From NCBI GenBank assembly GCA_003712055.1, contig RHLJ01000003.1, positions 186,001-250,000 on the forward strand: a stretch of DNA of 64,000 nt, in the 5' to 3' direction. The stretch's first letter is position 1. Every line of letters begins with the position of its first letter. The DNA is from Balneola sp. (lineage in GTDB: Bacteria; Bacteroidota; Rhodothermia; Balneolales; Balneolaceae). Below, piece by piece: positions 24,989 to 49,186 of this stretch. The position numbers and the translations under genes were made by a program. Under the pieces are notes generated by a model that worked only from the letters and a program-made list of their open reading frames with translations, did no database searches and was not told where the DNA came from.

Positions 24989-25327
24989 TTACCTGAGCAG
25001 TCCTACAAACTTGATTTCAAAACCATAGGTATACCTTCCACCTGACCAAAAATTAAAAAATACTTTAGTTGGCGATTTACATTTTTGGCAATAAAAATCT
25101 AAAAATGAATTACAGCCCTTTCTCCCGTAAGACTTAAACTCTTGATTATCCGAATCCGAAAGGTTCGAATACGACGAAGTAGTATGTTTATCAAAATCCT
25201 TAAAACTGAACCTGAGGCTTTTATTACATTTTGGACAAGTATAAACTGATTTTGGATGTAGATCCCAATCTTCATCTCTTTGAAAATTCAACTTGCTAAA
25301 CCAATTTTCTGCTTCATAAATTTGCAT
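24989..25327 (-). CDS. small zinc-ribbon-like hypothetical protein
   Basis: A 112-residue cytoplasmic protein with two Cys pairs, TCPKCNKSLRF (about residues 31-35) and YCQKCKSPT (about 80-83), which are spaced as in a zinc ribbon. The region between (KDFDKHTTSSYSN, then GRKGCNSFLDF) is polar and not repetitive. No family was recognised. ATG at 25327. A short reading frame (25362-25481) and the GIY-YIG unit lie just upstream on the same strand. Confidence 0.6.
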   Translation of the reverse strand: MQIYEAENWFSKLNFQRDEDWDLHPKSVYTCPKCNKSLRFSFKDFDKHTTSSYSNLSDSDNQEFKSYGRKGCNSFLDFYCQKCKSPTKVFFNFWSGGRYTYGFEIKFVGLLR

Positions 25328-25502: not shown

Positions 25503-25529
25503 GTCATCCCGAACTTGTTTCGGGATCTT
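25503..25529 (+). repeat. 27-bp palindromic repeat, left boundary of the GIY-YIG unit
   Basis: Starts GTCATCCCGAAC and ends TTTCGGGATCTT. The core ATCCCGAA-CTTGT-TTCGGGAT is a perfect 8-bp hairpin. It is an inverted copy of the repeat at 25865-25891, matching at 25 of 27 positions. The two differences (C/T and G/A) pair with each other in the stem, so the hairpin is kept. It begins 10 bp after the GIY-YIG stop. Confidence 0.85.
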
Positions 25530-25538
25530 ACGGAATGG

Positions 25539-25829
25539 CTATGTCCTCATAGTTTCATAGCAATCTTTCAGTTTAGGATTATGTTGCTTCACCAGATTCC
25601 ACTTCCTGTCTTTATGCCGGTTCTTTAGCTGTTTTTCTCTTGTAATAGCGTCAGTTATTGAATCTAATCCCTCTGCATAAACAAGAATTGTAAGCTTATA
25701 CCTAGCTGTGAACTCTGATCCTTTTCCTTCTTTGTGTTCCCAAATCCGTCTGGAAAGGTTGCTAGTTACCCCTATATAAGGTGCTGATCTTTTATAGTTG
25801 GTAAGAAAATATACATAGCCTTTGTTCAT
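25539..25829 (-). CDS. small GIY-YIG nuclease-domain protein between inverted repeats
   Basis: A 96-residue single-domain GIY-YIG protein of the YhbQ/UvrC-like type. The two signature blocks are GYVYFLTN (residues 4-11, the GIY position) and PYIGVTSNLSRRIWEHK (18-34, the YIG position with the following Arg). The conserved metal-binding Glu lies in ITREKQLKN (about 62-68). Such proteins cut or nick DNA, often at structured sites. The gene has its own ATG at 25829 and is framed by 27-bp inverted palindromes 10 bp after the stop and 36 bp before the start. The whole unit is about 390 bp. Mobility or a role in repeat maintenance is inferred; the nuclease family call is firm. Confidence 0.88.
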   Translation of the reverse strand: MNKGYVYFLTNYKRSAPYIGVTSNLSRRIWEHKEGKGSEFTARYKLTILVYAEGLDSITDAITREKQLKNRHKDRKWNLVKQHNPKLKDCYETMRT

Positions 25830-25864
25830 ACTTTGTAAGACGCATTAAAGAATGAATCCTTACA

Positions 25865-25891
25865 AAGATCCTGAAACAAGTTCAGGATGAC
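25865..25891 (-). repeat. 27-bp palindromic repeat, right boundary of the GIY-YIG unit
   Basis: Read on the minus strand it starts GTCATCCTGAAC and ends TTTCAGGATCTT, with the hairpin ATCCTGAA-CTTGT-TTCAGGAT. It is the inverted counterpart of 25503-25529. It lies between the ABC ATPase stop (25917) and the GIY-YIG start (25829). Confidence 0.85.
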
Positions 25892-32907: not shown

Positions 32908-33003
32908 GTCATTCCCGCGAAGGCGGGAATCTAGATTTAACTTTTATGAACAGAACAATGCTTTTAACCTAAATTTGGATTCCGGCTTTCGCCGCGGAAT
33001 GAC
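32908..33003. repeat. inverted REP-like pair with GTCATTCC ends
   Basis: The left arm starts GTCATTCCCGCGAAGGCGGG (32908 on) and the right arm ends CGCCGCGGAATGAC (to 33003), so both ends carry GTCATTCC pointing outward. Each arm is itself a hairpin (CCCGC/GCGGG and a CGGC-type stem). The GTCAT ends match those of the GIY-YIG boundary repeats and of the element at 49110. Confidence 0.65.
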
Positions 33004-49109: not shown

Positions 49110-49186
49110 GTCATTCTGAGGCTACCGCCGAAAAATCCAAGCGGGTTAAAGCCGATAAGATCCTTCGCAGGTATGCTCAGGATGAC
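49110..49186. repeat. REP-like element with GTCATYCTGAG ends
   Basis: GTCATTCTGAG (49110 on) and, at the other end, CTCAGGATGAC (to 49186), which is the inverted form of GTCATCCTGAG: 10 of 11 positions agree. The middle is about 55 bp with a further CCGC/GCGG match. It has the same terminal GTCAT as the GIY-YIG boundary repeats. Confidence 0.6.

Follow-up and report, generated by a model that had tools for sequence, protein, structure and literature searches.

The locus described here raises the question of whether a small nuclease gene and the two palindromes that frame it form a mobile unit, and if so, what the nuclease contributes. The gene lies within a stretch of 64,000 nucleotides of Balneola sp. 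DNA (the window), which was analysed together with the rest of the genome, with genomes of the same order, and with more distant bacteria.

Anatomy of the unit

The features found are listed in Table 1. The predicted framing of a GIY-YIG gene by a palindrome and an inverted copy of it was confirmed, and shuffled windows gave no matches of the GTCATCCCGAACTTGTTTCGGGATC/GTCATCCTGAACTTGTTTCAGGATC type. Each palindrome folds into a hairpin with an 8-bp stem and a 5-nt loop, leaving the GTC tag unpaired; the sole differences between the two are at paired positions, as C-G in one and T-A in the other. The ends originally proposed for the unit proved to be exact: homology with another genomic copy stops at the GTC tags, to within about 2 bp. 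We note that the unit is adjoined by a gene for a hypothetical protein of 112 residues (24989–25327), which contains cysteines (CPKC...CQKC) and has no Pfam or NCBIfam match.

Table 1. Features of the nuclease unit, and of two short palindrome pairs of other types, in the window
Feature	Position	Strand	Remarks
Complete REP/GIY-YIG unit, 389 bp	25503..25891	-	Bounded by the outer GTC tags, where homology (391 bp) between locus L031 and this unit (L034) ends; flanks unrelated
REP-like palindrome GTCATCCCGAACTTGTTTCGGGATC, gene-downstream end	25503..25527	+	GTC tag outward
Inner D end CTTACGGAATGGCT	25527..25540	+	Common to gene-less short units
GIY-YIG nuclease ORF, 96 aa, small stand-alone type	25539..25829	-	PF01541, 51 bits
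Inner U end CTTTGTAAGG	25858..25867	-	Common to gene-less short units
REP-like palindrome GTCATCCTGAACTTGTTTCAGGATC, inverted copy, gene-upstream end	25867..25891	-	GTC tag outward; compensated stem
Type B short inverted pair (GTCATTCCCGCGAAGGCGGGAATCTAG)	32908..33003		Between histidine-kinase-like and TPR-like genes; cognate genes L030 and L032 elsewhere
Type C short inverted pair (GTCATCCTGAG...CGAAGGATC)	49110..49186		Cognate genes L033 and L035 elsewhere in the genome

The palindrome family in the Balneola genome

The core of the window palindrome, which we call type A (CCYGAACTTGTTTCRGG), has 28 exact matches in the 3.63-Mb genome, where a control pattern has none. Together with near matches there are about 40 copies, mostly in inverted pairs, so that the search for further copies suggested by the original prediction was clearly positive. 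The stem is ATCCYGAA (8 bp) and the loop is 5 nt long. At the position that differs between the two window copies, 16 of the 28 have T-A and 12 have C-G; the two bases are matched in every copy, as the window pair had suggested. Among 14 distinct stem variants every stem cell is paired, and double changes are found in four of the eight base pairs. None of 500 shuffles scored as high as the real stems in paired cells, in doubly changed cells or in covariation, while the number of doubly changed pairs was equalled in 4 of 500. The hairpin has therefore been kept while its sequence changed, as had been claimed. The tag is GTC in 28/28 copies, preceded by A (15), G (8), C (3) or T (2); the tail is CTT in 21/28 and CCA in none of the 28.

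Sixteen type A inverted pairs could be resolved, all in the same orientation with the tags outward, and most with two different stems. Their tag-to-tag spacings are 80–85 bp (seven pairs), 139, 146, 192, 212–223 (four pairs) and 364 bp (two pairs). A gene is present only in full-length units, and is always GIY-YIG: it occurs in both of the 364-bp pairs and in L029, a full-length unit whose downstream palindrome is truncated. In 13 of the 16 pairs there is one U inner end (approximately CTTTGTRAGG) and one D inner end (approximately CTTAYGGAATGGCT). Because these match the upstream and downstream ends of the gene-bearing unit, the short pairs look like internal-deletion derivatives of it, and hence like non-autonomous elements comparable to MITEs or REPINs. 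As in MITEs, the short forms retain both ends of the coding unit; unlike in MITEs, the ends are hairpins rather than simple terminal inverted repeats, and no target-site duplication was evident when the flanks of the type A pairs were inspected by eye.

Copies at unrelated loci are homologous along the full length of the unit, and in several comparisons the homology goes no further than the outer tags. This holds for L014, L020, L022 and L023 (homology of approximately 107 bp), for L012 compared with L017 and L021 (248–252 bp), and for the second nuclease unit L031 compared with the window copy (Table 1). Whole units have therefore been dispersed, and their ends are fixed. Separately, four pairs (L001, L017, L021 and L025) have about 80 bp in common on each side beyond the tags, and may belong to a larger, nested repeat.

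Three palindrome types with their own nucleases

The Balneola genome contains ten GIY-YIG matches, seven of which are small stand-alone genes flanked by inverted palindromes. These seven are distributed over three palindrome types: type A, at loci L029, L031 and L034; type B (GTCATTCCCGCGAAGGCGGGAATCT, 15 exact genomic matches), at L030 and L032; and type C (GTCATCCTGAG...CGAAGGATC, 77 exact genomic matches), at L033 and L035. The weakest of the seven is L033, which is below the threshold of the flank test described below. At the type B loci, as in Azospirillum, Sinorhizobium meliloti and Neisseria, the gene has a complete pair next to it or one on either side, and is not enclosed by a single pair; there are therefore two architectures. 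In the type C pair at 49110–49186, the varying loop-proximal bases also look compensated.

The GIY-YIG enzyme

The GIY/YIG, R, H, E and N residues of the window nuclease form the catalytic pattern of the superfamily, and are invariant in an alignment of its relatives. For type A nucleases, dN/dS is 0.06–0.12 (non-recent paralogue and orthologue pairs with computable dS) and for the window copy 0.07–0.12; these values are rough, as synonymous sites are near saturation, yet it is clear that selection keeps the protein. The alternative that the window copy is decaying, on the grounds that three Trp residues are changed relative to the subfamily, receives no support from dN/dS.

The nearest solved relatives by sequence are the UPF0213 proteins 1zg2 and 1ywl (PDB). 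We know of no palindrome association for GIY-YIG proteins of this UPF0213/YhbQ type. A model of group I intron endonucleases weakly matches 4 of 15 family members. GIY-YIG enzymes are typical homing nucleases, and the unit could in principle spread by classical homing, in which a double-strand break at an unoccupied site leads to copying of the unit by recombination. Homing of this kind is directed into one allele, whereas the units described above are at unrelated sites with no common flanking target, and we therefore regard it as very unlikely.

Relatives within the order

GIY-YIG homologues were found in 30 of 59 genomes of the same order. Flanks were compared by local alignment of the upstream 200 bp with the reverse complement of the downstream 200 bp, a score of at least 16 being taken as a pass. 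On this definition, 33 of 79 GIY-YIG loci pass (a few loci being counted twice), compared with 0 of 107 control ORFs. In a wider sample, comprising the best 80 of more than 560 relatives (see below), 47 of 78 pass, compared with 0 of 40 controls. Such flanks are thus far commoner at the homologues than at control genes, and the original prediction survived this test. The approximately 40–60% of loci that fail comprise some with decayed or different palindromes and some that clearly have none. Most such palindromes lie between genes (Di Nocera et al., 2013; PMC3733652), and common terminator palindromes might in principle happen to flank a small gene; however, this is refuted by the controls, and an identical 364-bp architecture at unrelated loci also argues against it. 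We attach a negligible probability to it: that the association of nuclease and palindrome is not due to chance is strongly supported.

The type A palindrome is present in 11 of the 59 genomes, which include all nine that have a type A nuclease (at least 48% identity; hypergeometric probability 4e-9, ignoring relatedness). In genera g4 and g6, palindrome and nuclease are present or absent together, and genome G012 has just two type A palindromes, both of them flanking the gene. Genomes G004 and G028 have the type A palindrome but lack the corresponding nuclease; the G004 assembly is incomplete. Over 63 loci, the similarity of the proteins tracks the similarity of their flanks: the cross-genome correlation was reached by none of 2000 within-genome shuffles of the flanks, and the within-genome correlation by 14 of 2000 flank shuffles. 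Enzyme and palindrome types are matched.

Two further observations were made in these genomes. Tandem GIY-YIG genes, some with internal stop codons, are present at G019:C3:126451-127239, G043:C1:607177-608147, G025:C23:223524-224266 and G032:C37:205209-206205. In genome G001, two recent copies of a GIY-YIG unit (L042 and L069, dS 0.04) lie in a larger repeat whose ends resemble attC (AACAAGYGTTTCAA...GCTTAAACGCCGGGTCGTTA), which suggests that the unit is sitting in integron cassettes. These recent copies do not define the ends of the unit, because the larger repeat is shared beyond it.

Occurrence in other phyla

Protein matches on plasmid records come from Novosphingobium, Sphingobium, Sinorhizobium, Rhizobium, Neorhizobium, Azospirillum, Neisseria and others. 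Of ten non-Balneola loci examined, nine have such palindromes on each side of the gene, and in eight of the ten the flank alignment is long (29–83); that of Aeromonas is weak (12). At the R. tumorigenes locus there is no palindrome near the GIY-YIG gene. The exact CGTC tag occurs at proteobacterial loci L109, L113 and L116–L118, of which L116 and L118 also have the CCA tail; the palindrome of Rhizobium CIAT894 (CGTCATCCCAGGGCTTGACCCTGGGATCCA) is an example with the exact tag.

A broad alignment of 15 sequences contained no stretch conserved enough for a scan of the genome collection, and five closer sequences were used instead. With one genome per species, the scan found more than 560 relatives of the nuclease. 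The loci that pass the flank test among the best 80 are mostly from Alphaproteobacteria, and also from Bacteroidota, Desulfobacteraceae, Campylobacterales, Thiobacillus and Legionella.

Occupied, empty and solo-palindrome sites

Azospirillum lipoferum 4B has the unit between sufB and sufC. In A. ramasamyi, A. oryzae and strain B510 (approximately 96% identity around the site), the unit is absent and the two genes are separated by a plain, short gap. On Sphingobium plasmids, the gap between fnrL and a response regulator is occupied by the unit in seven strains and lacks it in four. A single palindrome stands at two of these unfilled sites; that of strain TYG64 is perfect (CGTCACCCCGGGTCAAGCCCGGGGTGACG). 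These could be the product of a deletion, or the scar of an excision or slippage. We note that both solo palindromes (L139 in TYG74 and L140 in TYG64) have CGTC at both ends. The same stretches contain gene-less pairs of this palindrome, 60–63 bp apart; in a comparison of 50-kb stretches, one short pair is present in two plasmids and absent from a third, the flanks having diverged such that there is no exact footprint.

The unit has thus been gained or lost at the Azospirillum and Sphingobium sites, and the search for empty sites proposed earlier gave empty or solo-palindrome sites in both genera, at less than base precision: neither the Azospirillum sites, where the intergenic region has diverged, nor those of Sphingobium give a base-exact junction. 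At the locus in the window, DNA synteny with genomes of the same genus is too diverged to reveal an empty site, and in a comparison of S. meliloti with M103 both sites are filled.

Relation to described systems

It had been suggested that the unit resembles RAYT transposases between REP palindromes. In architecture the parallel stands. As in the REP/REPIN–RAYT (TnpA-REP) systems of Gammaproteobacteria, a gene for a single-domain DNA-cutting enzyme is framed by inverted palindromes, gene-less pairs are dispersed in the genome, and a genome may hold several pairings of enzyme and palindrome. In the enzyme it does not: RAYT is a Y1/HUH transposase (PF01797), whereas the enzyme here is GIY-YIG (PF01541), acts with no covalent intermediate, and has no Y1 gene adjacent to it. 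The unit therefore does not belong to the REP/RAYT group.

The palindromes might nevertheless be mobilised by a RAYT or other transposase, with the GIY-YIG gene as cargo, given that most of these genomes encode Y1 transposases. We consider this most improbable. In the genome that contains the window (G000), the nearest Y1 gene is approximately 4 kb from the type A palindromes, and genome G007 has both palindrome and nuclease with no Y1 match; RAYT mobilisation is disfavoured on both counts. Moreover, the 16 type A pairs contain no ORF other than GIY-YIG, and the 2013 survey found no transposase between CGTC repeats (PMC3733652).

The original prediction was also made without awareness of a described system of this kind, while allowing that one might exist, and here it needs correction, as the palindromes belong with or near a described super-family, the CGTC-tagged REPs, which include dRS3 of Neisseria and RPE-4 and RPE-6 of Rickettsia (Di Nocera et al., 2013; PMC3733652). 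These are defined by an unpaired CGTC (or TGTC/CCTC) tag at one end, a stem of 8–9 bp starting with AT, a loop of 4–5 nt and a 3-nt tail, mostly CCA; they occur mostly as inverted dimers of a single orientation, often heterodimers, and the 2013 survey states that they are without a dedicated transposase and reports no associated enzyme (PMC3733652). Type A agrees with them in its 8-bp stem starting with AT, its 5-nt loop, its inverted pairs with different stems (whose orientation we assume to be the HH of PMC3733652) and its intergenic position. It differs in having a tag fixed only as GTC (CGTC in 3/28) and a CTT tail, and in its association with a GIY-YIG gene. Because of the tag and tail, we call the type A palindrome CGTC-like rather than a strict member. 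Several of the proteobacterial palindromes match the full definition, and relatives of the nuclease in Novosphingobium, Rhizobium, Azospirillum and Neisseria (dRS3) lie among true CGTC-tagged REPs. Among the organisms named for CGTC repeats are N. aromaticivorans, S. meliloti, A. lipoferum and Neisseria (dRS3) (PMC3733652), and a GIY-YIG/palindrome locus is present in all four. Within the collection of papers searched, none linked GIY-YIG to REPs.

A second probable overlap concerns the enzyme. A family of site-specific single-stranded DNA nucleases of GIY-YIG type, Ssn, first studied in Neisseria meningitidis, was reportedly described in about 2025. It is said to comprise thousands of homologues that cut their own repeats; Neisseria Ssn reportedly cuts its repeat as single-stranded DNA and modulates transformation, and the family is said to have been presented as a transformation-modulating nuclease and a tool, rather than as the partner of CGTC-REPs or as a mobile unit. 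Like the window nuclease, Ssn is reportedly a small stand-alone GIY-YIG protein with the catalytic residues and with a cognate repeat in many genomic copies. Presumably the Ssn family covers the biochemistry, and recognition has probably already been described for the Neisseria relative.

This suggests an alternative in which the nuclease serves the host, using the repeats as address labels in the control of DNA uptake or of recombination; they would then spread by other means, and the position of the gene would be secondary. The Neisseria relative of the nuclease sits among dRS3 repeats, and the strong purifying selection on the nuclease fits such a role, as do the reported single-stranded cutting and effect on transformation. 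It does not account for gene-bearing units that are dispersed, end exactly at their tags and have internal-deletion derivatives, for gain and loss at syntenic sites, or for genomes that hold several paralogues, each with a palindrome family of its own. We therefore regard a host role of this kind as unlikely, although less so than homing or mobilisation by a transposase.

A proposed mechanism and its implications

The original description of the GIY-YIG gene and its inverted palindromes as a candidate mobile unit is thus supported by the dispersal of whole units, the flanks of the homologues, and the empty and solo-palindrome sites. In our view the unit is probably a minimal mobile REP/GIY-YIG element, whose dedicated nuclease would cut the hairpin and which would then be copied by host repair. 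The repeat would become single-stranded during replication, repair or DNA uptake, allowing the hairpin to fold; the nuclease would recognise the single-stranded hairpin together with the GTC tag and cut next to it; and ligation or recombination by the host would join or copy the unit into another site. Because the hydrolysis of DNA by GIY-YIG enzymes involves no covalent intermediate, and no end is held, the joining would have to come from the host. The process would be more like homing than like the action of a transposase. Recognition, cutting, and a causal role of the nuclease in the spread of the repeats are inferences.

A broader proposal is that the CGTC-REP super-family is mobilised across bacteria by small GIY-YIG nucleases dedicated to it, which would be a counterpart of RAYT with a different chemistry; here we see the chances for and against as evenly balanced. 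What is added here is the anatomy of a mobile unit and the link to CGTC-REPs. Ssn, if it is as reported, supports recognition and makes the enzyme itself less novel. If the broader proposal is true, few known autonomous mobile elements would be smaller than the 389-bp unit, which would move through cutting of its hairpin and repair by the host. A GIY-YIG partner of the repeats would bring a second enzyme chemistry to REP-type mobility, and would provide a biological setting for site-specific single-stranded DNA nucleases. Few repeats are commoner in bacterial chromosomes than REP palindromes, and the CGTC group is one of their two super-families, for which no enzyme was known in 2013 (PMC3733652). 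With a consistent GIY-YIG partner that is matched to palindrome type, how CGTC REPs arose and spread can be tested directly.
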